This document shows positions 22,779 through 62,619 of a stretch of 64,000 bases of DNA, piece after piece. Numbering within the stretch: the first letter of the stretch is position 1; each line of letters opens with the position of its first letter. The notes below the pieces were generated by a model. It was not told the origin of the DNA, ran no database searches, and was given only the letters and a program-made list of their open reading frames with translations. Source of the stretch: Ktedonobacteria bacterium (lineage in GTDB: Bacteria > Chloroflexota > Ktedonobacteria > Ktedonobacterales > JACDGC01); NCBI GenBank assembly GCA_027459785.1, contig DAIDGU010000084.1, positions 62,001 to 126,000 of the forward strand, written 5' to 3'. The translations under genes were made by a program, and so were the position numbers.

Positions 22779-22995
22779 TGATGGCAAGCTCCTTTTTGGG
22801 GCTGGATTGGCGGGATCATCCCTCGGCCTGTTTTCACTATACATATCATCTGTTAAATTTGTGTTAATAATGTTAAACCAATGTTATTGCTACGAAATTT
22901 CCTGTAAAAAACGAAGCTCACATGCTTCGTTGATCAGTGTTCAATGTGTATAGTATATCACTTTTCAAAGACACATATCAAGGGAGGAAGTGGCG

Positions 22996-24252
22996 ATGAC
23001 GAAACGTAGACAACGTGTACTGAATGCGCAGCGCGTGCCAGCGCGGGCAATAGATCCCACAGCGATCAATGAGCATGGGATTACGGCCTTTACGCCGGGA
23101 CAGCCGCCACCGCCGGGGCCGGGCATCGTGGCGGTGGATGGCACGCCGCGCCAGTTCACCTTCCCTGCCGGTTACAACATCGCCCAGCGACCACGGGCGA
23201 CGGAGCTGACTTCCTTCGAGCTGCTGCGCCAGTTTGCGGCGCTCTATGTCGGCGTGCAGTTGTGCGAGCGTGTGTACCTGGACATCCTGGGGCGACTGGA
23301 ACTCCGGGTGGTGGCGCGGGCCGGGGGGCGGGCGGATGCCGCGACGGTGCGGCGCATCGAGGATTGGCTGGCGCGACCGGACGGCGAGCGCGATCTGCGG
23401 GCCTGGCTAGGCGCGGCCACCCGCGATCTGCTGGAGATCGACGCGCTGGCGATCTATCGCCGCCGGCGACGCGACGGGCGGATCTGGGGGCTGGAACTGG
23501 TGGACGGCGCAACAATTAAGCCGCTGATTGATGCGCTGGGGCGGCGACCGGAACCGCCCGCGCCGGCCTACCAGCAGTTCGTGTGGGGCATGCCTGCCGG
23601 GCTGTATGCCAGCACCGAACTGGATTACCTGTGCGAGACGCCGCGCACCGACAGCGTGTATGGTGTGAGTCGCGTGGAGCGCGTGCTGTATTGCATCAAT
23701 CAGGCGTTGCGCAAACAGACCTTTGATCTGGCGCGTTATACGGACGGCGTGGTGCCGGCGGGCATCTTGTATCCGCCCGTGAACTCGGAGTGGACGCCGG
23801 AGCAGATCGTGGAGTATGAGCAGCACTTCAACGCGATGTTGGCCGGCAACGATCAGCAGCGCATGCGGGTGAAGGTGGCCCCGCCGGGCTTCACATTCGC
23901 CGGGACGCATCCGCAGGAACCGAACGTGGCTTTCGACCAATGGCTGCTGAACATCACGGCGGCGTGCTTCGGGCTGACGATGGCGGAACTGGGCATGACG
24001 GAACAGGTGAATAAATCGAGCGGGGAAACGCAAGAGAACGTGGTGTATCGCCGCGCCGTGCGGCCCCTGGCGGACTTTTTTGCGCGCTACCTTTCGCGCG
24101 TGGTGGCGGAGGAGCTTGATCCGGGCTATGCCGTCACCTGGGGCGGCTTCGACGAGCCGGAGGATTTCGCTGCCAAGGCGCAGTCGCTGGCGCTGCTGGT
24201 GGAACGGGGGATCATTCCGCCGGAGCGGGCGCGGGAGATGTTGGGGTTATGA
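22996..24252 (+). CDS. phage-type portal protein
   Basis: A 418-residue portal protein resembling the HK97/SPP1-like portals of tailed phages, which form the ring through which DNA enters the capsid. Seen are an Arg/Lys-rich N-terminus, the wing/stem region with SVYGVSRVERVLYCINQALRKQ (the conserved portal helix), and the C-terminal crown with GLTMAELGM. The AGGGAGG site supports the ATG at 22996 rather than a GTG two codons upstream. It opens the phage-like set. The terminase gene that normally precedes a portal is absent. Confidence 0.75.
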   Translation: MTKRRQRVLNAQRVPARAIDPTAINEHGITAFTPGQPPPPGPGIVAVDGTPRQFTFPAGYNIAQRPRATELTSFELLRQFAALYVGVQLCERVYLDILGRLELRVVARAGGRADAATVRRIEDWLARPDGERDLRAWLGAATRDLLEIDALAIYRRRRRDGRIWGLELVDGATIKPLIDALGRRPEPPAPAYQQFVWGMPAGLYASTELDYLCETPRTDSVYGVSRVERVLYCINQALRKQTFDLARYTDGVVPAGILYPPVNSEWTPEQIVEYEQHFNAMLAGNDQQRMRVKVAPPGFTFAGTHPQEPNVAFDQWLLNITAACFGLTMAELGMTEQVNKSSGETQENVVYRRAVRPLADFFARYLSRVVAEELDPGYAVTWGGFDEPEDFAAKAQSLALLVERGIIPPERAREMLGL

Positions 24253-26620: not shown

Positions 26621-27724
26621 ATGATGAGTACACATGTTGAGGCGATCCAGCGGGTGGCGTTTGCGCCGATCACGCGCATTGATGCGGCGACGCGGGAGAT
26701 CGAGGTGACGGCGACGAGCGAGGCGCTGGATGCGTTTGGGACGGTGTTCGATTATGCGGCGAGCAAGGAGGCCTTTCAGCGGTGGCTGGGGAATGTGCGC
26801 GAGATGCACGCGAACGTGGCGGTGGGCAAGCGCGTGGCGGTGATCTGCGACGACGTGGCGCGGCAGATTCGCGTGCGGCTGAAGATCTCGCGGGGGGCGG
26901 CGAGTACCTGGGAGAAGATCCTGGATGGGACGCTGTGTGGGGCGAGCATTGGGGCGGCGAACGTGGTGTGGCGCGAGGCACGCCGCGCGGACAGGGACGC
27001 GGCACCGGTGCGGGTGGCGACGGCGTATGACCTTGTCGAACTGAGCCTGGTGGATCATCCGGCGAATCCTGATTGCGTGGGCATCGCGGTGGTGCGGGGG
27101 ATGGTGGCGGATGTGGGGGTGTTGGATGAGATCGAGGAGGGACGGGAACACGGAGGACACGGAGATCTCACGGAAGACACGAAAGAGGACGAAGGGACGG
27201 AACGGGAGGAAGAGGAGGCGGAACGCGAGATGACGCGAGATGGGCGCGAGATGACGCGAGATGGGCGCGAGGTGACGTGGGAGGCGGTGGCGGAAAGGGC
27301 AACGGCGGGGGAGGCGCGAGAGGCGGAGGAGGGAGCCGGAGAGATGGCGACGACTGTGATCGAGCCAGGAGGGCGGGACGTAGGACGCGCGGCGGCGGAG
27401 GCGCGGGTGCTGGCGGCGGCGCGCACGGCGGCGACGGGGGTGGCGCTGTTGCGGGGGGTGGTGGAGCGCATGGCGGCGGAACAGGCGGCGGCGCTGGATG
27501 AGGTGCGGGCGCGGTTGGCGCGCATCGAGGCGCAGCCGATGCCGGGCGGGCCGGCGCTGCGGGCGGCGGAAAAGGTGCTGGGCGTGCCGGCGGGCAATCC
27601 CACGGTGAACGTGGCGGAACGCATCGCGGCGCTGCAAGAGTTCGGCGCGGGGCGGTCGGACCAGCGGGCGCAGGTGGAACTGGCGGCGGAGATCCTGCGG
27701 CTGCAACGCGGCTGCGGGGAATAG
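26621..27724 (+). CDS. prohead protease with scaffold-like C-terminus
   Basis: A 367-residue protein. Residues 1-170 form a phage prohead protease domain (HK97-type U35-like), with the recognisable NVREMHANVAVG, GTLCGASIGAANV and YDLVELSLVDHPANPDC motifs; the last is the most conserved. It would cleave capsid proteins during head maturation. Residues 174-220 are a charged Glu/Arg linker that comes from a CACGGA/CGCGAGATG repeat inserted in frame. The rest (about 225-367) is Ala/Arg/Glu-rich and mostly helical, as in scaffolding domains. AAGGGA precedes the ATG. It sits just before the major capsid gene, the canonical order. Confidence 0.72.
   Translation: MMSTHVEAIQRVAFAPITRIDAATREIEVTATSEALDAFGTVFDYAASKEAFQRWLGNVREMHANVAVGKRVAVICDDVARQIRVRLKISRGAASTWEKILDGTLCGASIGAANVVWREARRADRDAAPVRVATAYDLVELSLVDHPANPDCVGIAVVRGMVADVGVLDEIEEGREHGGHGDLTEDTKEDEGTEREEEEAEREMTRDGREMTRDGREVTWEAVAERATAGEAREAEEGAGEMATTVIEPGGRDVGRAAAEARVLAAARTAATGVALLRGVVERMAAEQAAALDEVRARLARIEAQPMPGGPALRAAEKVLGVPAGNPTVNVAERIAALQEFGAGRSDQRAQVELAAEILRLQRGCGE
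27139..27275. repeat. CACGGA/CGCGAGATG repeat inside a coding sequence
   Basis: This stretch inside the prohead protease gene begins GACGGGAACACGGAGGACAC, then CGGAAGACACGAAAGAGGACG, then GGAACGCGAGATGACGCGAGATGGGCGCGAGATGACGCGAGAT. These words match the intergenic repeat family. The frame stays open and the repeat adds about 45 charged residues containing REMTRDG twice. Confidence 0.8.
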
Positions 27725-27967: not shown

Positions 27968-29458
27968 ATGGGGATCAATTTGAATGAAGAGACGATTGCG
28001 CTGTTTCGGCAGGCGCAGGAGACGCGGGCGATCAACACGACATCTGGGCTGATCGGGTATGACCTGGAAGCGCCGGCCAAGGTGATCGTGCCGGTGACGA
28101 CGCCGCTGGTGAACATGTTGCCGCGCCAGCGGGGTAAGGGCATTGATGTGACGCACTGGAAGGCGATCACTAGCTTCGACACGGCGCGCAGCCTGGGGGC
28201 GCTGGCGGATGGCGCAACGCCGACGCAGGTGAGCTATGCCGTGGCGAACATGCTGAACAGCTACCAGACCATCGCGCTCTCGAACGCGGTGACGTTTCAG
28301 GCGCAGTGGCGCGGGCGCTCGCTGGAAGGCGATGTGCGGGCGCGGCGGACGGCGGAATTGCTGTATCAACTCAAGATCGTGGAGGAACGCTGGCTGGTGC
28401 AGGGATCGAGCCTGCTGATGGTGCCGCCCGCGCCGGTGGTGAGTACCTCGGCTAGCGGCGGGAGCATCGCGGCGGGGACGTATTGGGTGCAGGTGACGGC
28501 GACCAATGCGCAGGGCGAGACGCTGCCCAGCGCTCTGCCGGCGACCAGCAACGGGACGACGGCGGTGGTGACGACGAGCGGCGCGACTTCGACGATCACG
28601 CTGACGCTTTTCACGGTGCCGAACGCTGCCGGCTACAATGTGTATATCGGCGCGGGCAGCACGCCGCCGGCGAACGCGGCGATGTGGAAGCAGAACGGGC
28701 TGACGCAGACACAGCCGGCCTATGGCGCGAGCGTGCAACTGGCCAACGGCGGCACGACGACTGCCGGCGAGGTGGTGCCACCGACGATCACCGTGACGCT
28801 GACAACGGCACCGGCGACCAGCGGGACGAATCCGCCGGCGAGCAACACGGCGAAGACGCTGGTGGATGGCAGCGGCAATCCGCTGATGTTCGACGGGCTG
28901 CTGGCGCAGGCGCTGAATAACGCGACGCTGACGAACGGCGGATCGCTGGGGACGCAGGTGGCGCAGCCGGCGGCCAGCAGCGGCATCCTGGCGCTCAGCG
29001 ATATCGACGCGATCCTGATGAACCTCTACCAGCAGGCGGCAGGCGATCCGGATATCATCGTGATGAACCCGATCGACAACGTGAAGCTGACGAATCTGGT
29101 GGTGGCCGCCGGGCAGATGCGCTACGTGATCGACGCGGGCAAGGCCAGCGAGGCGGCGCACGTGCTGGCCCCCTTCCGTGTGACGGCGTATCTGAACAAG
29201 GTGACGGGGCGCGAGATTCCTATCGTGCTGGACCGCTATTGCCCGATGGGGACGCTGCTCTTTTTGCCGCTGAGCCTGCCCTATCCCGTGCCGGAGATCG
29301 ACCATGCCATCGAGATCGAGACGAACCAGGATTACTGGGGCATCGATTTCGCCATCACCACCTCGCAATGGCAATTTGCGAACTATGTGGATGAGACGAT
29401 CAAGGTGTATTTCCTGGGCGGGCTGGGGGTGTTGCGGGGGATCGTGCCGTCGGTGTAG
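27968..29458 (+). CDS. phage-type major capsid protein with Ig-like insertion
   Basis: A 496-residue protein likely to be the major capsid protein. The N-terminal part and the C-terminal part (about 290-496; LLAQALNNATLTNGG, SDIDAILMNLYQQAAGDPDIIVMNP, LPYPVPEIDHAIEIETNQDYWGIDF) look like the HK97-like fold. Between about 153 and 290 lies a Thr/Ala/Pro-rich domain (SIAAGTYWVQVTATNAQGET, AAGYNVYIGAG) that resembles an Ig/FN3-like surface insertion. Such insertions decorate some phage heads. The ATG at 27968 follows GAGG, and the frame upstream runs through the inverted repeat, so the longer form is unlikely. It follows the protease/scaffold gene. Confidence 0.65.
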   Translation: MGINLNEETIALFRQAQETRAINTTSGLIGYDLEAPAKVIVPVTTPLVNMLPRQRGKGIDVTHWKAITSFDTARSLGALADGATPTQVSYAVANMLNSYQTIALSNAVTFQAQWRGRSLEGDVRARRTAELLYQLKIVEERWLVQGSSLLMVPPAPVVSTSASGGSIAAGTYWVQVTATNAQGETLPSALPATSNGTTAVVTTSGATSTITLTLFTVPNAAGYNVYIGAGSTPPANAAMWKQNGLTQTQPAYGASVQLANGGTTTAGEVVPPTITVTLTTAPATSGTNPPASNTAKTLVDGSGNPLMFDGLLAQALNNATLTNGGSLGTQVAQPAASSGILALSDIDAILMNLYQQAAGDPDIIVMNPIDNVKLTNLVVAAGQMRYVIDAGKASEAAHVLAPFRVTAYLNKVTGREIPIVLDRYCPMGTLLFLPLSLPYPVPEIDHAIEIETNQDYWGIDFAITTSQWQFANYVDETIKVYFLGGLGVLRGIVPSV

Positions 29459-33417: not shown

Positions 33418-36400
33418 TCACGGCTCCATCTCCGGTAGCCCCAGGTTTGGCAGCGCGCCGATGATGCGCTGTGTTGCCAGGCTGACGGTGATGACCTGAC
33501 CGACGAGGCGCACGATGTATTCGGGGTCGTCGCGCCGGTTGGGATCGCTGGTGATGCCGCTGCGCTTGTCGGTGGTGACTTGATATTGGTCGATGACCCA
33601 TTCCAGGGCGGAACGGTTGCCCAGGCGATAGGCATACGCTTCCGGCGGGATGCCTTCCAGGCGCAGGGATTCGTTGACCTGGAGGGCGGTTTTGTCGCGG
33701 CTGAGGGTCATCTTGGTGACGCGCCAGGTGAAGGGGGCGGCGTTAGCGATGACGCGGCGCAGGGGGTAGGGTTCCGCTTGCTCGTAGCCGATGTGCAGGC
33801 GCGCGAGGGCGCTGCCGGCGGCGACAAATTGAGTGAAATCATTCATCGGCGGCTCGCCGGGGGTTAAACCCCCCGGCTCGGAAAAGGAACCCCCTACGGG
33901 GCTGGGGACGGGCGCGATCGCGGTGGGGCCGCCGACGAGCGGGATGCGCGGCAGTTCGCGTTTCAGGTTTTCGGCGTAGCGAGCGCGATAGGCGGGGTGG
34001 TGGAGGATGGCGTAGACGTAGTGGAAGATGTCGCGCTTGGTGACGGCGGGGCCATACGCGGCGCGGAATTGCGCCAGCGCCCAATCGGTGATGTTTTCCT
34101 GGCGGTTGCTACCGTCGGGGTCGTAGGTGTAGAAGGGGAAGCACTGCGCCCCTGTTCCCGCACCTGATAGATGTAAATCTGCTAACATTGAAGTTGCTAA
34201 TACCATAAATGGTTTTTCAGAACCAATGCCAGTAAGACAAATTGCTTCATTTTCATGAGCTTTTGCAGTTGGAGGAAAGAAATAATTGTTGGTTCCTTGT
34301 TCATCAACAATCATATCAGCAAAATAGAGCCGCAAATTTGTATATGGACGATATAAGGATTGGCGAATTGCATTGCTATCAAATTGCATATAGCGTTCAT
34401 TGCGAAGGTCGCGCTTGAGGTTGCGACTCCATTTTATTTTTTCATAATGCAAAAAATCATCAATATCTTTAGGTTTGCCTGCTCTTACCCATCGAAAAAC
34501 CTCTCCGTTATAATTTTCAATGAACTGTTCTACCCGCGAGGCCAATATCTCACCATCAAAGTCATAAGCAACGCCGTCACGTGCTGTATTTACACCGAGT
34601 GAATACGTCTTGAAAATGGATGATACGTCTAGGTATTTCGCAGCTTTAGCTGTTTTCGATCCCATTGGTAGGAAAGTGGCGAATTCGGGGCGCATGCCTT
34701 CGGTCAGCCAGTTGTGGTGGTCGTCGGGTTCGAGTTCTTGCCAGTCGATATGGGTGATATCGCTCTTTTCTTCCAGATAGGCTAGTTTCGTCTCTTTGCG
34801 CCAGTCTTCAGGGACGCGGTAATACCAGAGGCCAGTGGCGGGGTTTTCGCGCTTGCGGATGGCGATGGTAATGCCGACGCCGACTTGAATACCGAATACG
34901 TTGTGCGTCGTGCCGGAGAGCTTGGGATTCTTGCGGACATTGCCATGCAAGTCGAGATGCCAAATTTGGGTGAAGTCGGCCAGGAGATGATGCCGCATGC
35001 CGTCGAAGGCGATCTGATCCAGGAAGGAATTGTTGCTGACGTAGCAGACGATGCCGTCGCGTTCGCCCAGGCGGTCGGTGGCCCAGCGGAAGAATTTGAC
35101 ATAGGCGTCGTAGAGCTTGGTGTTGAGCGTGGCATGGGAGTCTTTGGCGTAGGTGGATTGGATGCGGTCGTCGATCTGGTCGGGGTCGGTCTTTTTGGCT
35201 TTGCGATAGCGGCGGTTCTTGTTGTTGTCGTTCTCGTTTTCCTGGCCGACGTTATAGGGCGGGTTGCCGATGATGACCATGATCTGGGCATTCAACTCGT
35301 TTTCGACGCGCTGGGTGTTCTTTTCGGTGAAGATGGAGGATTGCACCTGGGAGCCGGTCTGGCCGGCGGTGGCGAGGGTATCCACGAAGCAGAGACCCTC
35401 GAAGGGCGCATAGGTGCCGGTGCGCTCGTAATATTTATGCTCGATATTCATGGCGGCGATGTAGTAAGGCAGCAGCATGATCTCGTTGCAAAAGAGGTCG
35501 TGGGCATATTTATAGGCCAGGTCGGGCGCGGCGATGCGGTCTAGCAGGTTGACGATGAAGTTGCCGGTGCCGGTGGCGGGGTCCAGGATCTGCACGCCAC
35601 GGTCGGAGAGCGAGCGGGCGAATTCGCGCTGCAACACGGCTTCCACGCTGGCGCACATGAAGCTGACGATGGGCTGGGGGGTATAGACGATGCCGTGGGT
35701 GTCGGCTTCCTTCACGGCGAAGCCCTGGAAGAAGCGTTCATAGACGGTGTTGAGGAAATCTTGCTTTTCGGCATAGGTGGTGATGGTGCGGGCGGAGTTT
35801 TCGATGGCGACATAGAAAGGATCGAGGGCGCGCAGGAAGTCGGCGCGGTTGAAACTATGGTGCGTGAGGGCGGCGATGACGGTTTCAATCTCGTTGGCGA
35901 TGACGTTGCGGCGGGTGAAATCGGGATTTTCGAAGACGGTGCGAAAGAGGCGTTCCGTCAGCAAGTGCTGGATGAGCATCTCATCAATCGCCGCCGCGCT
36001 GATGGTGGGATCGATGGCCGTTTTGCAGAGATCCCAGAAGCGGGCGAAGGCGGCGAGGAACGTGGCGTTGCGCTGGACGCGCTGCTCCTCGATCTTGGCG
36101 CGCAGACCGGCGGCGAGTTCGGGGATGCGCTCCTTGAACTGCGCGACGGCGGTGGTGAACGCTTCATAGGCCGGCTCCGTCCACGTGAAGAACGCTGCCA
36201 GCAGATCGGCGAGATCCTGCGGCTGGGCCAGATCGAAGGTGCGGGGGTCGCGGCGGTTGTTCTGGAAAAGGACGGCGTGCAGGGTGTCTTCAAAGATGAT
36301 GTTGGTGGTGGGATATTTCAGGCGCAGCTTGGCCTTGATCTCGGCTTCCAGGTTGTCCGCCGGATCTTTCGCCTCCCAATAGCCGCGTGGCAGGCCGTTC

Positions 36401-36606
36401 GCGTCGCGCAAGACGGCATCCGGGCGCTTGCCGCCGGCGAGGGTCTGCTCGGCCAGGAGCGTCCAGCCGTGTTCGCGGCCCACTTCCACCAGCAGATGCT
36501 CGAAGGCGCGGCGCAGCCCGCCCTCTTTATTGACGCCCTGGGCGCGAATCTCGACGATGGTGGCGTAATAGTGCTTGATGGCGCGGTGGGCGGGGGTGAT
36601 GGGCAT
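33418..36606 (-). CDS. PD-(D/E)xK nuclease-DNA methyltransferase (type IIG/ISP-like)
   Basis: A 1062-residue single-chain restriction-modification-type enzyme. The N-terminus has a PD-(D/E)xK-like site (RPDAVLRDANGLPRGYWEAKD, about residues 62-82). A helical connector follows. The N6-adenine methyltransferase core then shows motif I DPATGTGNF and motif IV NPPY (in IIGNPPYNVGQ), preceded by the X motif region GIVYTPQPIVSFM. The C-terminal half would recognise DNA. There is no helicase domain, which separates it from classical type ISP enzymes. The segment encoding residues about 650-820 is clearly AT-richer than the rest, suggesting exchange of the recognition domain. A family B repeat is read in frame near residue 905. 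AGGAG precedes the ATG. Confidence 0.8.
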   Translation of the reverse strand: MPITPAHRAIKHYYATIVEIRAQGVNKEGGLRRAFEHLLVEVGREHGWTLLAEQTLAGGKRPDAVLRDANGLPRGYWEAKDPADNLEAEIKAKLRLKYPTTNIIFEDTLHAVLFQNNRRDPRTFDLAQPQDLADLLAAFFTWTEPAYEAFTTAVAQFKERIPELAAGLRAKIEEQRVQRNATFLAAFARFWDLCKTAIDPTISAAAIDEMLIQHLLTERLFRTVFENPDFTRRNVIANEIETVIAALTHHSFNRADFLRALDPFYVAIENSARTITTYAEKQDFLNTVYERFFQGFAVKEADTHGIVYTPQPIVSFMCASVEAVLQREFARSLSDRGVQILDPATGTGNFIVNLLDRIAAPDLAYKYAHDLFCNEIMLLPYYIAAMNIEHKYYERTGTYAPFEGLCFVDTLATAGQTGSQVQSSIFTEKNTQRVENELNAQIMVIIGNPPYNVGQENENDNNKNRRYRKAKKTDPDQIDDRIQSTYAKDSHATLNTKLYDAYVKFFRWATDRLGERDGIVCYVSNNSFLDQIAFDGMRHHLLADFTQIWHLDLHGNVRKNPKLSGTTHNVFGIQVGVGITIAIRKRENPATGLWYYRVPEDWRKETKLAYLEEKSDITHIDWQELEPDDHHNWLTEGMRPEFATFLPMGSKTAKAAKYLDVSSIFKTYSLGVNTARDGVAYDFDGEILASRVEQFIENYNGEVFRWVRAGKPKDIDDFLHYEKIKWSRNLKRDLRNERYMQFDSNAIRQSLYRPYTNLRLYFADMIVDEQGTNNYFFPPTAKAHENEAICLTGIGSEKPFMVLATSMLADLHLSGAGTGAQCFPFYTYDPDGSNRQENITDWALAQFRAAYGPAVTKRDIFHYVYAILHHPAYRARYAENLKRELPRIPLVGGPTAIAPVPSPVGGSFSEPGGLTPGEPPMNDFTQFVAAGSALARLHIGYEQAEPYPLRRVIANAAPFTWRVTKMTLSRDKTALQVNESLRLEGIPPEAYAYRLGNRSALEWVIDQYQVTTDKRSGITSDPNRRDDPEYIVRLVGQVITVSLATQRIIGALPNLGLPEMEP
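33855..33906. repeat. GGCTCGGAA repeat (family B) inside the methyltransferase gene
   Basis: CCGGGGGTTAAACCCCCCGG followed by CTCGGAAAAGGAACCCCCTACGGGGCTGGGG. On the minus strand it encodes VGGSFSEPGGLTPGEPP in frame, so the insertion leaves the gene open. Confidence 0.8.
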
Positions 36607-40505: not shown

Positions 40506-41441
40506 ATGACGTTGTTTAGTTGTTATGTGGATGTGCCAACATTTGTGCGCGGGGCGATGGGGGTGGAAACGGCGTCGCTGCTGGGAGGGAATAGCGTGCT
40601 GGCGAGCGCGGCGGCGCAGGGGGCGACGAGCCTGGCGGTGGCGGAGGGAACGGGGTTCGCGGCGGGGATGGGCTGGGTGCTGGATGGGCCGAACAGTGAG
40701 TTGATCACCATCGCGTCGGTGAGCGGGGGAGCGCTGACGCTGAGCGGGGGGACGCAAGCGGCGCACGGCGCGGGGGTGTGCGTGGCAACCGGCGGGGCGA
40801 GCGGATCGCTGGCAGAGGCGCTGGTGCGCGCCTCGGCGTGGGTGGAGGGCTATTGTGGCCACGGGCGACCGGGCAACGCGAGCGATCCGATGCTCTTCGC
40901 GCTGAGCCGCAGCGAACGCTATCGGCTGCCGGGCGCGCACGCGACGCTCGATCCGGCGGGGGTGCTGACGGTGCGGCCCTTGCACTTTCCCGTGCAGACC
41001 GTGAGCGCGCTGACGCTGGATTGGGGGCTGGGGCAGACGTGGACGCTGGATGTGACGCAAGTTGAAATGCTGGAGACGGCGCGCAGCTTCGATGTGCCGC
41101 CGCCGCTGCCGGTGACGGGGACGACGGGGTTCACGGGCCTGCCGGGCGGCTGGCCGCGCGCGTGGAGCGACATCGCGCTGAGCCGCTCCGGGCCGCTGTG
41201 GGTGGCGCTGACGTATACGGGCGGGCTGACGGCGGGGGCGCTGCCCTATGACTTCGTGCAGGCGGTGAGCTGGGTGGCGTGCCATCTGCTGGGCTACCGC
41301 GAGAATCCGACGGGGGCAGCCCAACGGCGGCTGGGCAAGAAGGCGCTGGTGAGCCGGCTCCGGGGCGATCCGAGCGACGAGAGCCTGCTGCTGCTGGACG
41401 CGAAACGGGCGCTGGCAGGGTATCGCAACCAGCCTTTTTGA
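40506..41441 (+). CDS. phage-type head-tail connector/adaptor protein
   Basis: A 311-residue protein. The C-terminal part resembles phage head-tail connector proteins (FVQAVSWVACHLLGYRENPTGAAQRRLGKKALVSRLRGDPSDES, ending in LLLLDAKRALAGYR). The N-terminal region contains a small beta-rich domain with a Gly/Ser-rich stretch (QGATSLAVAEGTGFAAG), unusual for such a protein. It would attach the tail machinery under the portal. The ATG at 40506 follows a GGGGGTGGGG stretch. It occurs 11 kb after the capsid gene, at a position where the connector gene would normally follow the capsid immediately. Confidence 0.55.
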   Translation: MTLFSCYVDVPTFVRGAMGVETASLLGGNSVLASAAAQGATSLAVAEGTGFAAGMGWVLDGPNSELITIASVSGGALTLSGGTQAAHGAGVCVATGGASGSLAEALVRASAWVEGYCGHGRPGNASDPMLFALSRSERYRLPGAHATLDPAGVLTVRPLHFPVQTVSALTLDWGLGQTWTLDVTQVEMLETARSFDVPPPLPVTGTTGFTGLPGGWPRAWSDIALSRSGPLWVALTYTGGLTAGALPYDFVQAVSWVACHLLGYRENPTGAAQRRLGKKALVSRLRGDPSDESLLLLDAKRALAGYRNQPF

Positions 41442-44250: not shown

Positions 44251-46206
44251 ATGACCACCCCACGGATCTTCATCAGCCACAGCCATCATGATAATGCGTT
44301 CGGGCAGCAGTTGGTCGCGGACCTGCGCGGTCTGTTGGGCGAAGACGCCGTGTGGTACGACGCCTCCGGTGGCTTGCACGGTGGGGACGAGTGGTGGGAC
44401 CGCATCGTCGCCGAGATCACCGAGCGCACCACCTTCATCGTCATCCTCTCACCGGAGGCGCTGGCCTCCAAATGGGTGCCGCGCGAGATGAGCATCGCCT
44501 ACCGGCTGCACGTGGAACTGGGCCACCACCTCATCCCGATCATGTTTCAGCCCTGCCAGCGCCGGTCGGACTGGGCGCTGATCCAGGAGGTCGATTTCGT
44601 CGCGCCACGCGCCTATCAGGATGCTTTCGCGGATCTCTGCGGCGTGCTGGGCATTGCGGCCACCGCCGTCGCCGCGCCCGCGCCTGCCCCCGTAGATCGC
44701 CGTTCGCCCGTCACGCAGCGCCTGACGCAAGAGACGCATACTGCCTTTGGCCGCGAAGATTGGTCGGTGGTCATCGACAAGACCGACGTACTGATCGCGC
44801 GCAACGAGATGACGCCCGTCCTCTGGCGCGAGCGCGGCCTGGCCCTGCTGGCGCAGCGCGATGCGCGCGATGCCCTCGCCGCGCTGGAGCGCGCCTTGGT
44901 TGCCGATCCCGATGATGTGCCGACCCTGCGTGCCAAAGCCAAAGCCCAACTGGCGCTGGGCCAAGACGACCCCGCCGCCCAGACCCTCACCCTGGCGCAA
45001 TCGCTGGCCGCGCTGGATGACGCCGCCACCCGCCTGCCCCTGCTGGACGAGCTGTATCCGGTGCTGGTGCGGCTGGGCCGCTGGCCGGAGGCCGCCCGCC
45101 GCGTGCAAGACGCGCTGCGCCTGGCCCCGCGCGACCCTGCCTGGGTGCAGCGCCAGAACGACGTGCAGACGCATCCGATGCAGGAGCAATATGATGCCGC
45201 CAGCGCCAAGCAGGACTGGCCCGCCGCCCTGGTCGCCTGCGCTGCCGCTATTCTGCTTGCCCCCGGCGATGCCGCCTGGCAGCAGCGTCACGCCCACGCG
45301 CAAGCACAGAGCGAAGCCGCCCGCCACGCCGCCGAGGAGGCCGAGCGCCAGCGCAAGGCGCAAGAGGAAGCTGAGCGGTTGCGCAAAGAGCAGGAGCGGC
45401 TGCGTCAGGAACAAGAGCGTAAGGATCGCCTCTTGCCCTCGCGGCTGCGCACCCTCGGCTTCGTCCTCGCGCCCAACGCGGAGGCCATCATCCCACCCAC
45501 GGTCGAAGTCCCCGCTGGCCCCTTCACGATGGGCAGCGACAAGAAACGCGATCCCGATGCGAGCAAATATACGCCGGAACCGCTGGTTTCGCTGACACTA
45601 CCAGCCTTCCGCATCGGCGTGTATCCGGTGACGGTGGCGGAGTATACCTGCGCGCTGGCCGCGAAGGCGAAGGATGTCACCCAGCCGAACAACTGGGCCA
45701 GCCAACAGCAGCAGCCAGACCACCCCGTCGTCTACGTGTCGTGGCTGATGGCGAGCGCCTATGCGGCGTGGTTGAGCCAGATGACGGGCGAGCCGTGGCG
45801 GCTGCCGACGGAAGCCGAGTGGGAGAAGGCCGCGCGTGGCACGGACGGGCGGATCTATCCCTGGGGCGACCAGTGGGACAAGGCGCGGGCGAACACCAGC
45901 GACGGCGGTGCCGGTGGCACCACACGCATAGGGCAATATATGGACAAAGATGCCAGTCCGTATGGCTGCCACGACATGGCCGGCAATGTGTGGGAGTGGA
46001 CCAGTAGCCTCTGGAACAATGGTGCGCCTTACGACAAGATTAAAAGTGAGAATGATAGTGATAGAACAAATTACCGTGTGCTGCGTGGTGGCTCGTGGGG
46101 CGGCGGTCCGCCGATCGCGCGTGCGGCCTATCGCTTCAGGGTTCGGCCCGATCTCGTGAGCCTCGACCTCGGGGTTCGCCTCGCGCGTGGGCGGGCTGGT
46201 ACATAA
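44251..46206 (+). CDS. DGR target: TIR-TPR-coiled coil-FGE protein
   Basis: A 651-residue protein. Residues 4-136 are a TIR domain (RIFISHSHHDNAFGQQL; putative NAD-hydrolysing Glu79 in SKWVPREM). Residues 155-350 look like TPR helices. A charged coiled coil (AEEAERQRKAQEEAERLRKE) spans about 360-392. From about 415 to the end is an FGE-sulfatase/C-type-lectin-fold domain (VEVPAGPFTMGSD, RLPTEAEWEKAARG, DMAGNVWEWTSSLW, LRGGSW, GVRLARG). Residues 609-651 are the variable repeat. There is no signal peptide, so it is probably intracellular. The start at 44251 follows GGGAGG; a longer frame lies upstream. TIR proteins of this type often act in antiphage or cell-death responses; here the recognition face would be varied by the retroelement. 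Confidence 0.88.
   Translation: MTTPRIFISHSHHDNAFGQQLVADLRGLLGEDAVWYDASGGLHGGDEWWDRIVAEITERTTFIVILSPEALASKWVPREMSIAYRLHVELGHHLIPIMFQPCQRRSDWALIQEVDFVAPRAYQDAFADLCGVLGIAATAVAAPAPAPVDRRSPVTQRLTQETHTAFGREDWSVVIDKTDVLIARNEMTPVLWRERGLALLAQRDARDALAALERALVADPDDVPTLRAKAKAQLALGQDDPAAQTLTLAQSLAALDDAATRLPLLDELYPVLVRLGRWPEAARRVQDALRLAPRDPAWVQRQNDVQTHPMQEQYDAASAKQDWPAALVACAAAILLAPGDAAWQQRHAHAQAQSEAARHAAEEAERQRKAQEEAERLRKEQERLRQEQERKDRLLPSRLRTLGFVLAPNAEAIIPPTVEVPAGPFTMGSDKKRDPDASKYTPEPLVSLTLPAFRIGVYPVTVAEYTCALAAKAKDVTQPNNWASQQQQPDHPVVYVSWLMASAYAAWLSQMTGEPWRLPTEAEWEKAARGTDGRIYPWGDQWDKARANTSDGGAGGTTRIGQYMDKDASPYGCHDMAGNVWEWTSSLWNNGAPYDKIKSENDSDRTNYRVLRGGSWGGGPPIARAAYRFRVRPDLVSLDLGVRLARGRAGT
46075..46203 (+). 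repeat. DGR variable repeat (VR)
   Basis: The last 129 bases of the target gene. Aligned without gaps to the template repeat at 47952-48080 it matches at 106 of 129 positions. All 23 differences fall on template adenines (12 to G, 6 to T, 5 to C), and all 98 non-adenine positions are identical. Variable codons are 617-619, 621-622, 629, 631, 632, 635, 637-640, 649 and 650, plus a silent change at 623. VR ends exactly at the final codon; the next base starts the stop. Confidence 0.97.
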
Positions 46207-46298
46207 TAAAGTTTGCTCGCTTTCGTCCTTTCTTTCAGCATTACAATATCGATAAAGTGAGTGATGTGGTGTAATGGTGAGGGTGCGCCAGCCGTCCT

Positions 46299-46320
46299 CG
46301 CGCGTAGCGCGATCGAAATT
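46299..46320 (+). terminator. hairpin with T-rich tail between target and RT
   Basis: CGCGC-GTA-GCGCG at 46299-46311 is followed by ATCGAAATTTTTTATATTTT. It may terminate or weaken transcription from the target into the reverse transcriptase gene, keeping its level low. Confidence 0.45.
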
Positions 46321-46342
46321 TTTTATATTTTGGGAGGTGCAA

Positions 46343-47470
46343 ATGGACAACGAGGGCTACCCGGTGACGTTGTTCGCCCAGGTCTATTATTTCGAAAATC
46401 TGCTACGCGCCTATCGCCAGGCGGCGCGCGGTAAACGCTCGCGCCCAGATATCATCCGCTTCGACTACCAGTTAGAGTGGCAGTTGCTACGTTTGCGCGA
46501 TCAGTTGCGCGCTGGCACCTATCGCCCCGGTCCCTATCGGAGCTTCGCCATCACCGATCCCAAGCCGCGCCGCATCTCCGCCGCGCCCTTCGCCGACCGC
46601 GTGGTGCATCACGCCGTCGTCAACGTCATCGAGCCATTGTTCGAGCGCCGCTTCATCAAAGACTCCTACGCCAACCGCATCACCAAGGGCATCCATGCCG
46701 CGCTCGACCGCTGCACGTTCTTCGCCCGCCGCTACCGCTATGCGTTGCGTTGCGACATCGTGCAGTTCTTCCCTTCTGTCGATCACCTCGTCCTCAAGCG
46801 CCTGCTCTGGCCCGTCGTGCGCGATCCCCAGGTGATGGCACTCTGCGAACAGATCATCGATGGCGGCGCGCACGAACTCACCGATCAATATACCCTCGTC
46901 ACCTTCCCGCAAGATCGCTACGGTGCGGAAGCCTATCGCGCCCGCGGCCTGCCCATCGGCAACCAGACCTCGCAATTCTGGGCCAACTGTTACCTCAACC
47001 CGCTCGATCATCTCGTCAGCGATCAACTTGCCTGTCCCGCCTATCTGCGCTATGTCGATGATTTCCTGCTTTTCAGCGACGACAAAGCCCAACTCCACAC
47101 CTGGAAAAAGGCGATTATCACCCATTTGGGTGCCAAACTGCGGCTGGTGTTACATGAGCCGGAAGCCGCCGTCATACCTTGTGAGACGGGTATCCCGTTT
47201 CTTGGCTTTCGCGTCTATCCCGACCATCGCCGCTTGCGACGGCGCAATGGCGTAGCCTTCGCCCGGCGCTTACGTGACATGGCCGATGGTTTTGCGGCAG
47301 GTGAACTCATCGGTGAGCAGATTACCCCGCGTGTGCAGGGTTGGGTGGCGCATGTCGCCCACGCCAACACCTGGGGGCTGCGCCGTTCTCTGCTGGCAGC
47401 CGTTACCTTCACCCAGCATAGCGAACGCACTCCAATTCTCTCCCCCTCTCCATCCGCCGAGGGGGTGTAG
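46343..47470 (+). CDS. DGR reverse transcriptase
   Basis: A 375-residue reverse transcriptase of the diversity-generating retroelement class. Motif A Asp is D138 in LRCDIVQFFPSVDH. The DGR hallmark IGNQTSQ (residues 205-211) replaces the QG...SP of group II and retroviral enzymes, and YVDD is at 237-240. Motif 0-2 parts such as RRISAAPFADRVVHHAVVNVI and RRFIKDSYANRITKGIHAAL are present. It would copy the template-repeat RNA into cDNA, misincorporating opposite adenines. Start at 46343 after GGGAGG. The final residues (SPSPSAEGV) come from an intergenic repeat, so the ancestral end may be a little earlier. Confidence 0.95.
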   Translation: MDNEGYPVTLFAQVYYFENLLRAYRQAARGKRSRPDIIRFDYQLEWQLLRLRDQLRAGTYRPGPYRSFAITDPKPRRISAAPFADRVVHHAVVNVIEPLFERRFIKDSYANRITKGIHAALDRCTFFARRYRYALRCDIVQFFPSVDHLVLKRLLWPVVRDPQVMALCEQIIDGGAHELTDQYTLVTFPQDRYGAEAYRARGLPIGNQTSQFWANCYLNPLDHLVSDQLACPAYLRYVDDFLLFSDDKAQLHTWKKAIITHLGAKLRLVLHEPEAAVIPCETGIPFLGFRVYPDHRRLRRRNGVAFARRLRDMADGFAAGELIGEQITPRVQGWVAHVAHANTWGLRRSLLAAVTFTQHSERTPILSPSPSAEGV

Positions 47471-47503
47471 GACCAGGGCGACCACAAGGGTACGCCCCCA
47501 CAT
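47471..47503. repeat. GCGACCACAAGGGTACGCCCC repeat (family C)
   Basis: A copy of the family seen near 9188 and 20512, located between the RT and avd genes. A palindromic CCCCCTCTCCATCCGCCGAGGGGG word directly precedes it and encodes the last residues of the RT. Confidence 0.75.
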
Positions 47504-47526
47504 GTGCTTGCCCTGGGGGTGGGGCC

Positions 47527-47907
47527 ATGACGGAATCGCCGATCTTCATCAAGGTGCTGGATTTCCTAGCCTGGCTGGTGCCACAGATCCAGAAGTTTCC
47601 GCGTGAGCAGCGGTTGGTGATGGCCGCCAGAGTCCACACCACCGCTTTCGCCTTGCATGAGGCGCTGGTGCGCGCCGCCCAGGCGACCACAGCGGAAACC
47701 ACGCTCCAGCAGCTTGATGAAGCCGTGACGCAACTGACCCTCCTGCGCTTTTACCTGCGTTTGTGCGAAAAGCTGTCGCTCATCGCACCCAAACAATACG
47801 AATATGCCAGCCAATGTCTCATGGAGGTCGGCAGTCTGTTACAGGCGTGGCGGCGCAAAACCGCCGCCACATCGTCCAAGGCAGTTCCCACACCGGCTTC
47901 CATCTGA
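47527..47907 (+). CDS. avd: DGR accessory variability determinant (Avd)
   Basis: A 126-residue four-helix-bundle protein of the Avd/S23-like family. The helices run MTESPIFIKVLDFLAWLVPQ, EQRLVMAARVHTTAFALHEALVRA, TLQQLDEAVTQLTLLRFYLRLCEKL and YEYASQCLMEVGSLLQAWRR, with the expected amphipathic pattern. Avd forms a pentamer that binds RT and the template RNA and is needed for mutagenic cDNA synthesis. It starts 56 bases after the RT stop and ends 44 bases before the template repeat, an order seen in many DGRs. Confidence 0.9.
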   Translation: MTESPIFIKVLDFLAWLVPQIQKFPREQRLVMAARVHTTAFALHEALVRAAQATTAETTLQQLDEAVTQLTLLRFYLRLCEKLSLIAPKQYEYASQCLMEVGSLLQAWRRKTAATSSKAVPTPASI

Positions 47908-47951
47908 TCGATCGATGGGGTTGGTGATGGTCTGTGGGGCATGACCGAATG

Positions 47952-48080
47952 CGTGTGCTGCGTGGTGGCTCGTGGAACAACGATCCGCAGAACGCACGTG
48001 CGGCCTATCGCAACAGGAATCAACCCGATAACGTGAACAACAACATCGGGGTTCGCCTCGCGCGTGGGCGGGATGATACA
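47952..48080 (+). repeat. DGR template repeat (TR)
   Basis: The 129-base template for diversification. It contains 31 adenines; 23 have been changed in the VR, 8 are unchanged. It holds eight AAC codons and one AAT in the target frame (AACAACGATCCGCAGAAC and others), the codon type that gives the widest amino-acid choice after adenine mutation. The 3' part GTTCGCCTCGCGCGTGGGCG is identical in TR and VR and GC-rich, as expected of the homing-initiation region. It lies 44 bases past avd and is not expected to be translated. Confidence 0.97.
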
Positions 48081-48177
48081 GGGTTGCGGAGCCTGAAATC
48101 CGGCACATACTTTCGGGCGATGACCGGCGCGGCTCCCATATGCTTGTACCAGCGCGGTCTTGCCCCCGCTGAGGTTC

Positions 48178-48202
48178 GGCGGATCGCTTGCAACGATCCG
48201 CC
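48178..48202 (+). ncRNA. stem-loop 98 bases after TR
   Basis: GGCGGATCG-CTTGCAA-CGATCCGCC, a perfect 9-base stem with a 7-base loop. In characterised DGRs the RNA downstream of TR forms a structure bound by Avd and RT that primes cDNA synthesis; this hairpin lies at the right place. It could instead be a plain terminator. Confidence 0.5.
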
Positions 48203-48367
48203 GGCCAGCGAAATAGCGAAAATGCGCGCGTCTCGAACCGCATGCTGCGTCGTGCATCACGCCTGCTGAGCGGCTGGGGACACGCCCTCCGTCCTCTCCC
48301 TCTCTCCATCCACAGATGGGGAGAGGTTGGGGGCAGGGTTCCCGTGGAGCGACGGCGCGGGGCCATC

Positions 48368-48769
48368 TCACCAGATGGTCGGCACCTGGGAAAGCTGGAT
48401 CTTGCCGTCGCGGCTGATGACGGGGACGGCCAGGCGCACCGCCGTGGCGGCGATGATGCGGTCGGGCATGTCGGGAACCTGGGCGCGGGGGATGGTGCGC
48501 AAGGCGAGCGCGACCTCCCGATCACAAGGGAACTCTTGAAAGACGGCGTTCGGCAGATCGAGAACGAGTCTGAGCGTATCAAACGTACCAGGGACAATGC
48601 GCCCCTTTTCGATCAGATAAATCATCTCGATGAGCGTAATCGTCGAGATGCCGATGCGATCACCATTTTGTGCGGCGGTATCGATGGTATCGCGTGCCGT
48701 CGCAGAGAGGCGGGGATCATTCTCCAGATACCAGATGACCGCATGTGTATCAGCGATCGCCTTCAACAT
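48368..48769 (-). CDS. vapC: VapC-like PIN-domain toxin
   Basis: A 133-residue PIN-domain ribonuclease. The first catalytic Asp is in KAIADTHAVIWYL, the conserved Glu in ISTITLIEMIYLIE, and later acidic residues in VPDMPDRIIAATAVRLAVPVISRDGKI, giving the expected D-E-D-D set. VapC toxins cut tRNA or rRNA when not bound by VapB. It overlaps vapB by 20 bases, so the pair is an operon on the minus strand. It follows the DGR in the opposite direction. Confidence 0.85.
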   Translation of the reverse strand: MLKAIADTHAVIWYLENDPRLSATARDTIDTAAQNGDRIGISTITLIEMIYLIEKGRIVPGTFDTLRLVLDLPNAVFQEFPCDREVALALRTIPRAQVPDMPDRIIAATAVRLAVPVISRDGKIQLSQVPTIW

Positions 48770-61948: not shown

Positions 61949-62619
61949 TTAGCATCCCTGCTTGACTTGGAGCGGAATTTGGAACACCCAGGCGGGTACA
62001 TCATTGGCATAGGCGGTTGAGAAGGTGTAGACCGTACTGGTGGAATACCATTGATCGCTCGTTGTCTTCGTCGCTGGATCGGTGCGGCGGATATCATTAC
62101 TGATGATGCGCCCATCGGCAGCCGTGGCAAATGCTACCGTTTGTGTCAATGAATGATTGGTTTTTCCGGTTGCGCGCCAAATGCGGAACTGGGCAGGAAC
62201 GGCAGCTTGTTGGGTATGAAGAGTAGTTGGGAGGGCGGGAACACCTTGCGGCAGTGGTTCAATGGGGGTGGTCGAACTTGAGGCGGTGAAATGCTCGTTC
62301 AACAATTCTTGCTGGTTCACATACCAGGGAAAAACATAAAGCCGTGGTTATCTGTTTCGTACCAGTTACTATACGTTATGATAACACCTGTGCCGGGATC
62401 GGCAGGATTAGGGCCGGGGCCGATATAGCTCAGCCCTTGCCAATAGATGATGCTGTTCGCTGGCTCACCGTGCGTAATGACCCAGGGTTGATGGTGAGTG
62501 GGGAATGTGAAAGCTGCGGCATCGTTCGCCGAAGCTGGGCGGGCCTTCACAGAAGTTCGATTTTTCACTACCGCAATGAAAGCAACGAGCAGAACGAAAA
62601 CAGCGAAGACGATTAACAA
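61949..62619 (-). pseudogene. membrane-anchored protein gene with frameshift in a T-run
   Basis: Frame one (62317-62619) codes for a membrane anchor (MLIVFAVFVLLVAFIAVV) and an extracellular part ending in NHGFMFFPGM. Frame two (61949-62320) starts with a GTG overlapping the first stop (GTGA) and continues VNQQELLNEHFTASS. One extra T in TTTTT near 62331 would read ...FFPWYVNQQELL, a natural continuation. The full protein would be about 222 residues with one membrane helix and a Thr/Ser-rich outer part. It could instead be two coupled genes. I do not recognise the family. Confidence 0.5.

Follow-up and report, generated by a model that had tools for sequence, protein, structure and literature searches.

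The 64,000-nucleotide (nt) stretch analyzed here, hereafter the window, corresponds to positions 62,001 to 126,000 of contig DAIDGU010000084.1 (assembly GCA_027459785.1) from a Ktedonobacteria bacterium of the order Ktedonobacterales. It carries an element whose sequence supports its assignment as a complete diversity-generating retroelement (DGR), a known kind of device, and every ingredient of the element has a published precedent. The cassette is arranged in the order target gene, reverse transcriptase (RT), Avd, template repeat (TR), and RNA element, with the variable repeat (VR) at the end of the target gene. The features are listed below in window coordinates.

44251–46206, plus strand: target gene, 651 amino acids (aa), with Pfam matches placing a TIR domain at aa 6–129, a TPR-like part at about aa 165–256, and an FGE/C-type-lectin (CLec) domain at aa 416–646
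46075–46203, plus strand: VR, in frame and ending right before the stop codon of the target gene
46196–46199, plus strand: VR side of a terminal mark, a discriminator resembling the initiation of mutagenic homing pair (IMH/IMH*), reading C (46196) and G (46199) against A in the TR (48073 and 48076)
46298–46312, plus strand: GC hairpin TCGCGC-GTA-GCGCGA, then AAATTTTTT, 95 nt past the VR; proposed target-recognition hairpin
46343–47470, plus strand: DGR RT, 375 aa, with motifs IGNQTSQ and YVDD (RVT_1 1.6e-12; phrog_1423 2.3e-112)
47527–47907, plus strand: Avd, 126 aa (NF033474 9.2e-24; bAvd 8.2e-16; phrog_3206 8.6e-21)
47952–48080, plus strand: TR, with eight AAC codons in the VR frame
48081–48290, plus strand: structured 3′ portion of the template RNA, counterpart of the ‘sp’ spacer of phage BPP-1, from the consensus fold of 13 loci
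48090–48093/48156–48159, 48127–48132/48149–48155, 48167–48183/48197–48210, and 48226–48241/48270–48285, plus strand: RNA helices of the consensus fold

The VR and the TR were aligned by program over 129 columns without gaps; all 23 mismatches fall on the 31 TR adenines, and the non-adenine columns are identical (98/98). The same figures had been obtained by eye in an earlier sequence-only reading and were reproduced exactly, and the RT with its two motifs and the Avd that it had claimed between the repeats were both located there. Beyond that reading, the analysis added the TIR domain of the target, the structured RNA past the TR, the hairpin past the VR, and the relatives having trans targets. 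The probability that 23 random mismatches all hit A is 4.7e-19, and the identity ends sharply at both borders. The changes comprise 12 to G, 6 to T, and 5 to C, they are distributed as 8/13/2 over the three codon positions, and the VR differs at 21 of the 27 adenines preceding the terminal mark. The pair is hence a near-repeat differing at template adenines only, as defines a DGR. Recent activity of the window DGR is likely, a weaker statement than the sequence-only reading’s claim that the element has been active recently, because 0/98 non-adenine changes bound the VR–TR divergence only at 3.0% (95% upper bound).

Nine related loci yielded ten further adenine-only VR/TR pairs, and a pair proposed by the same scan in locus L058 was dropped because it belongs to a tandem-repeat protein. 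A scan of named genomes yielded 72 RT loci, mostly of Chloroflexota, with adenine-only pairs in 44 of them; the scan selects for the pattern, and the letter control gave 63 runs for A, 0 for C, 8 for G, and 1 for T. Among its 58 pairs, which include three tandem repeats in L077 and three ambiguous pairs in L093, 884 of 890 mismatches are located at A, a figure that carries no independent weight, since runs free of non-adenine mismatches are what the scan selects.

The 3′ end of the TR is GATGA in the Ktedonobacterales pairs (CATGA in three), and its VR counterpart is GCTGG (CCTGG). The first position of this mark changes from A to C in 11/11 Ktedonobacterales pairs and the second from A to G in 10/10 pairs having A there in the TR. 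C in 11/11 is not attributable to chance, because the VR letters at interior sites of all pairs are 362 G, 330 T, and 111 C. Outside Ktedonobacterales, most Chloroflexota pairs have one terminal A to C (46 C, 6 T, and 4 G in 56 picks, approximately ten of which are interior sites; L093 and pairs less than 250 nt apart were excluded), and the mark was checked one by one in the 11 Ktedonobacterales pairs. Two Crocosphaera pairs are without a terminal A to C. Judged from its letters, the mark is a constitutive TR/VR difference of the kind that separates IMH* from IMH, and it resembles the difference described for BPP-1 (PMC4891356). The pattern that the sequence-only reading took as the signature of mutagenic retrohoming is thus retained within a complete DGR, except that 2 of the 23 mismatches need no mutagenesis, because they form this constitutive difference.

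The RT, Avd, a C-type-lectin-fold domain with the VR at its C-terminus, the structured RNA, and the fixed mark are all present, as expected of a DGR. The nearest solved structure to the RT is 8ub7_A (2.4e-45), which we take to be the BPP-1 complex; the top NCBIfam model is a group II RT at 114 bits, far under its cut-off of 300. Avd scores 83.8 bits with NF033474, above the NCBIfam cut-off of 80, and the solved structure 4dwl matches it weakly (E 0.042). A quick tree of 82 RTs joins the window RT and 12 other Ktedonobacterales RTs in one group, with Shimodaira–Hasegawa-like approximate likelihood ratio test (SH-aLRT) support of 94 at the fork and 99 counting only grouped rows, nested in 70 mostly Chloroflexota RTs (SH-aLRT 99). 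BPP-1 brt and four other phage DGR RTs, whose long branches were flagged, are on the same side and four group II-type RTs are apart, so that the RT phylogeny, named beforehand as a possible refutation, places the enzyme on the DGR side. The tree excluded L132, L133, L138, and L139 as short and L038, L040, and L042 as giving no match. Six DGR clades have been described (PMC8144416). RT matches of at least 57% identity were found in 13 of 47 genomes of the order (fragments only in G011 and G012), and the remaining matches do not exceed 35%; the scan of viral_contigs with the window RT found no relative, and 156 phage records contain more distant DGR RTs, all below 60% identity. The source assembly (4.84 Mb, 94.4% complete) has one DGR RT match and one bAvd match, and no second TR was found in it.

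Furthermore, 200-odd bases past the TR are alignable across 13 loci, and the consensus fold comprises 44 pairs, 27 of which show compensatory change. Paired cells account for 89.9%, compared with 74.4% in shuffles and at most 40.2% when the pairing is slid, and 97 cells are changed on both sides, compared with 36.4 in shuffles. A covariance model built from the first part of the element (R1) matches 17 places in 12 of the 47 genomes of the order, all having DGR RT matches. Outside the order (36 sources, E up to 10), 6 of 17 matches lie 18–54 nt past a TR run, in sense orientation (L104, L136, L138, L123, L076, and L079), with weak E values of 2.6e-5 to 0.89, and the remaining 11 are located elsewhere. 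R1 gave no match in BPP-1, an Rfam search of the window gave none, and among the titles listed in literature searches on DGR RNA structure none was a covariation study of such RNAs. The sequence after the TR of BPP-1 is described to fold and to recruit RT and Avd (PMC12875486), and the natural reading is therefore that the element in the window would recruit both proteins likewise.

Several related loci appear rearranged or decayed. L060, L061, and L163 are deletion derivatives in which RT, Avd, and TR are largely or wholly gone and part of the structured RNA is kept, and L163 retains a whole TIR-FGE gene ahead of the RNA remnant. In L029 (genome G009; 2493–2624), the place of the TR has other letters at the usual adenine columns, as if it had been overwritten, had decayed, or had been swapped in assembly. 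In L162 (G003, contig 5), Avd, TR, and the RNA element stand, by eye, behind the end of an apparent TnpB-type transposase gene, which suggests that an insertion may have separated the RT from the rest. The RT of L052 (G002) contains two in-frame TGA codons, yet VR and TR are in perfect adenine-only register; the two paralogous DGR loci of this genome differ at 131 of 1026 RT sites, at 118 of 635 sites of the target upstream of the VR, and at 5 of 103 non-adenine VR sites. The VR of L049 (G017) is, by eye, approximately 15 nt shorter than its TR inside the adenine-rich part; slippage within AAC repeats has been mentioned in connection with DGRs (PMC12875486).

The target protein combines a TIR domain (TIR_2, 9e-18) with an FGE domain (FGE-sulfatase, 3.1e-51), and its TPR matches are under their curated cut-offs. 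Both TIR_2 and FGE are present in 12/12 aligned Ktedonobacterales proteins, hand-picked from full-length targets and orphans with targets cut by contig ends excluded, and Glu79 of the TIR domain, which we take to be its catalytic glutamate, as in TIR immune effectors, is invariant in all of them. In a set of 32 targets whose loci belong mostly to other Chloroflexota, FGE was found in 32, NACHT in 24, and TIR_2 in one; among Ktedonobacterales targets, those written in trans included, TIR is common and not exclusive. Pfam and NCBIfam gave no NTPase match in the window target, which is thus not of the STAND NTPase-FGE type, and no MoxR ATPase or vWA genes were found in the part of the neighbours scanned with Pfam. 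The model of the FGE domain has a mean pLDDT (predicted local distance difference test score) of 92.5, and its Foldseek matches include FGE-type folds and the DGR protein TvpA (2y3c, E 1.3e-15). The formylglycine-forming cysteines of true FGEs are located in the region matching the VR part. Because the VR part of the target has no cysteine, its FGE domain probably serves in binding rather than catalysis. The TIR domain is a module used by bacteria in anti-virus alarm proteins, and Ktedonobacterales are mycelial. The protein may sense a ligand, cleave NAD through its TIR domain, and act in defence. PADLOC matches on the target (E 9.4e-12 and weaker) connect it with Thoeris ThsB, the TIR of pAgo systems, and TIR-NLR proteins; unlike in bacterial TIR defence proteins, the TIR part is all that matches, and no partner genes were identified at the window locus.

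Unlinked targets were surveyed in ten genomes with a known TR, in which all FGE matches outside DGR loci (51 stretches) were compared with the first 112 nt of the TR. Eight of the 51 differ from their own TR at 10–19 adenines and 0–2 other columns, and the other 43 have at least 12 non-adenine differences. Five of the eight trans VRs are in G001 (non-adenine differences 0/83 in L208, L210, and L211, and 1/83 in L212 and L221), and the others are L234 in G004 (0/84), L245 in G010 (1/87), and L255 in G013 (2/85). All eight carry the terminal mark. No RT match was found on their contigs, which extend more than 5 kb past the VR without an RT in L208, L211, L212, L234, and L245 and end at most 0.5 kb past it in L210, L221, and L255. 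Seven trans targets were scanned; TIR-FGE was found in four (L210, L212, L245, and L255) and NACHT in L208 (above cut-off) and L221 (just under), and the start of L211 is cut off. From their sequences, one template has evidently written unlinked TIR-FGE and NACHT-FGE genes in Ktedonobacterales relatives. G001, which belongs to the same family as the window genome, has 21 FGE matches, the most among 14 genomes searched.

In the window genome, none of the three other FGE genes is a current target. Two of them, the orphan TIR-FGE genes C27 and C64, contain the two other TR-like places and were tried as remote VRs of the window TR and rejected because of 20–26 non-adenine differences (20–23 in 84–85 columns). 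Compared with the TR of a genome of the same genus (G003, L162), they differ at 8 and 10 of 86 non-adenine columns, and the control C65 at 39 of 86. At third codon positions, C27 and C64 share 81% identity within the VR part, compared with 62% ahead of it. Because they are close to the G003 TR, unlike the control, C27 and C64 appear to have been targets of a sister DGR that this genome has since lost; leftover targets are known in Treponema denticola (PMC4891356).

The hairpin after the VR was surveyed in 28 Ktedonobacterales VR flanks. The best window hairpin has a 6 bp stem and the loop GTA at +95, and a search of the 4.84 Mb assembly for the motif plus its A/T tail gave a single occurrence. 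A GNA triloop is the best hairpin in 15/28 flanks (shuffles: mean 0.23, maximum 2), namely in 6/15 cis flanks, 2/2 flanks of truncated-RT loci, 7/8 trans flanks, 0/1 for L163 (loop TCC), and 0/2 for the ex-targets; the eighth trans flank (L255) is only 97 nt long, and two cis flanks of G001 that carry a GNA hairpin as their second hairpin were excluded from the count. The adenine-only pattern being genuine, this hairpin could still be a transcription attenuator or terminator and not a homing signal, a doubtful explanation that draws on the stem followed by AAATTTTTT in most lineages and on the position of the window hairpin directly ahead of the RT gene. However, the same hairpin stands behind trans targets without an RT (7/7 with enough sequence), the stem in G004 is unrelated and the loop is still GNA both in cis and in trans, with an A run replacing T, and the hairpin is not among the results of a general terminator scan. 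Since the trans targets have no RT behind them, a homing signal like the BPP-1 hairpin appears more likely than an RT attenuator.

The adenine-only pattern, the cassette parts, the RNA covariation, the mark, the recurrence of the hairpin, and the trans writing in relatives are established at the level of sequence, and it is very probable that the element is a cellular Ktedonobacterales DGR diversifying a TIR-TPR-FGE sensor protein. In the window strain, complementary DNA (cDNA) synthesis and homing would proceed as follows. An RNA spanning the TR and the downstream structured element would be copied by the RT with Avd, and template adenines would be misread during copying. The cDNA would replace the VR at the C-terminus of the TIR-TPR-FGE protein, and as many as 27 adenine positions in predicted ligand-facing loops of the lectin fold would change while the remainder stays constant. 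The terminal mark (TR GATGA, VR GCTGG) and the GNA-triloop hairpin would label the VR, and not the TR, as the recipient. The variable FGE domain would then be a changeable sensor, and a bound ligand would switch the TIR enzyme of the same polypeptide.

Some observations speak against parts of this interpretation. Folded as a single sequence, the RNA does not outperform shuffles (z −0.81), and the evidence for the RNA element is limited to covariation because its thermodynamic stability is not significant. The best hairpin is other than a GNA triloop in 13/28 flanks and no hairpin was found in five of the Ktedonobacterales cis flanks; the flanks of L052, L027, L057, L062, L049, L053, and L029 have none or a different one. 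The window hairpin has a 3-nt GNA loop 95 nt from the VR, whereas BPP-1-type target sites have 7–10 bp stems and 4-nt GRNA loops 4–34 bp past the VR (PMC3240598). The defence role is read from domains, with PADLOC matching the TIR part alone, and no connection is seen between the DGR and the phage-like genes surrounding it.

A DGR that was once active and is now silent, with the VR as the frozen product of an old homing event, is improbable. It would accommodate the 3.0% bound noted above, and frozen ex-targets (C27 and C64) are found in this genome and truncated RTs in the relatives L059, L060, and L061. The RT and Avd frames are nevertheless intact, YVDD, TR, RNA element, mark, and hairpin are all present, and the VR shows 0/98 non-adenine differences where the ex-targets of the window genome show at least 20. 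A phage or prophage tropism DGR, lying in a prophage by chance, is hardly credible: portal, protease, and head-tail adaptor-like genes do lie upstream in the window, but the target is a TIR-TPR-FGE and no tail protein, these phage-like genes occur in 0/20 related DGR stretches (within limited flanks), the viral_contigs scan gave no relative, and relatives of the portal occur in 17 of the 47 genomes of the order, the matches listed being far from DGRs or on other contigs.

The element can be compared with systems described by others. The DGR of the Bordetella phage BPP-1 shares RT, Avd, TR, VR, adenine-only mutagenesis, a structured RNA 3′ of the TR, and a hairpin 3′ of the VR (PMC12875486; PMC3240598). 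Its RT is 34% identical to the window RT by tblastn, and the BPP-1 element differs in its order (target, Avd, TR, and RT) and in having a tail protein as the target. Clade-5 cellular DGRs of multicellular bacteria, including Thiohalocapsa PB-PSB1, likewise have CLec/FGE sensors on effector/STAND modules; TIR is described as the N-terminal effector of some targets and accompanies CHAT in DGR 2, and CLec/FGE DGR proteins have been proposed as antigen sensors in multicellular bacteria (PMC10907252). The window protein differs in its TIR-TPR-FGE composition without an NTPase in the same protein, and this likeness is one of domains. FGE domains beside DGRs in conflict systems have also been described (PMC7159879; PMC8195603). 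The TvpA DGR of T. denticola shares a single TR writing remote targets, leftovers of lost DGRs, near-identical 3′ ends with few fixed TR/VR differences, and the FGE-type fold (2y3c), and differs in target domains and taxon (PMC4891356). For cyanobacterial DGRs, 121 apparently diversified CLec genes, 76 of them remote, have been reported, with TIR-like and TPR parts among the target domains; remote targets were called there at more than 50% identity to the TR, compared with the near-absence of non-adenine differences used here (PMC7517822). No text combining ‘diversity-generating retroelement’ and ‘Ktedonobacter’ was found among the papers searched.

By these findings, a further bacterial order would have single-protein TIR effectors whose sensor is rewritten by DGRs. 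They provide handles on the RNA structure needed by the RT–Avd complex, in the form of a covariation-supported model, on the distinction between recipient and donor, in the two fixed letters of the mark and the GNA-loop hairpin, and on how one template serves many targets. More tentatively, one template may act as a genome-wide diversifier of immune receptors, rewriting in trans a marked and hairpinned tip on TIR and NACHT proteins, with the targets of lost DGRs left as a frozen repertoire; in the window genome, one target would be served and two (C27 and C64) frozen. If these proteins are immune sensors, live, recently frozen, and old targets would allow a direct test of prokaryotic receptor diversification by hypermutation.

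The phage-like genes of the window comprise the following.

22990–24252: portal
26621–27724: head protease
27968–29458: PHROG of unknown function
40506–41441: head-tail adaptor-like gene

They are interspersed with cellular genes (GH3, GH5, a type IIG/ISP restriction enzyme at 33418–36606, and GNAT), and a decayed prophage and a domesticated particle are candidate readings. Directly past the DGR lies a PIN-domain gene on the minus strand (48368–48769), which together with a small upstream gene is possibly a toxin-antitoxin pair.

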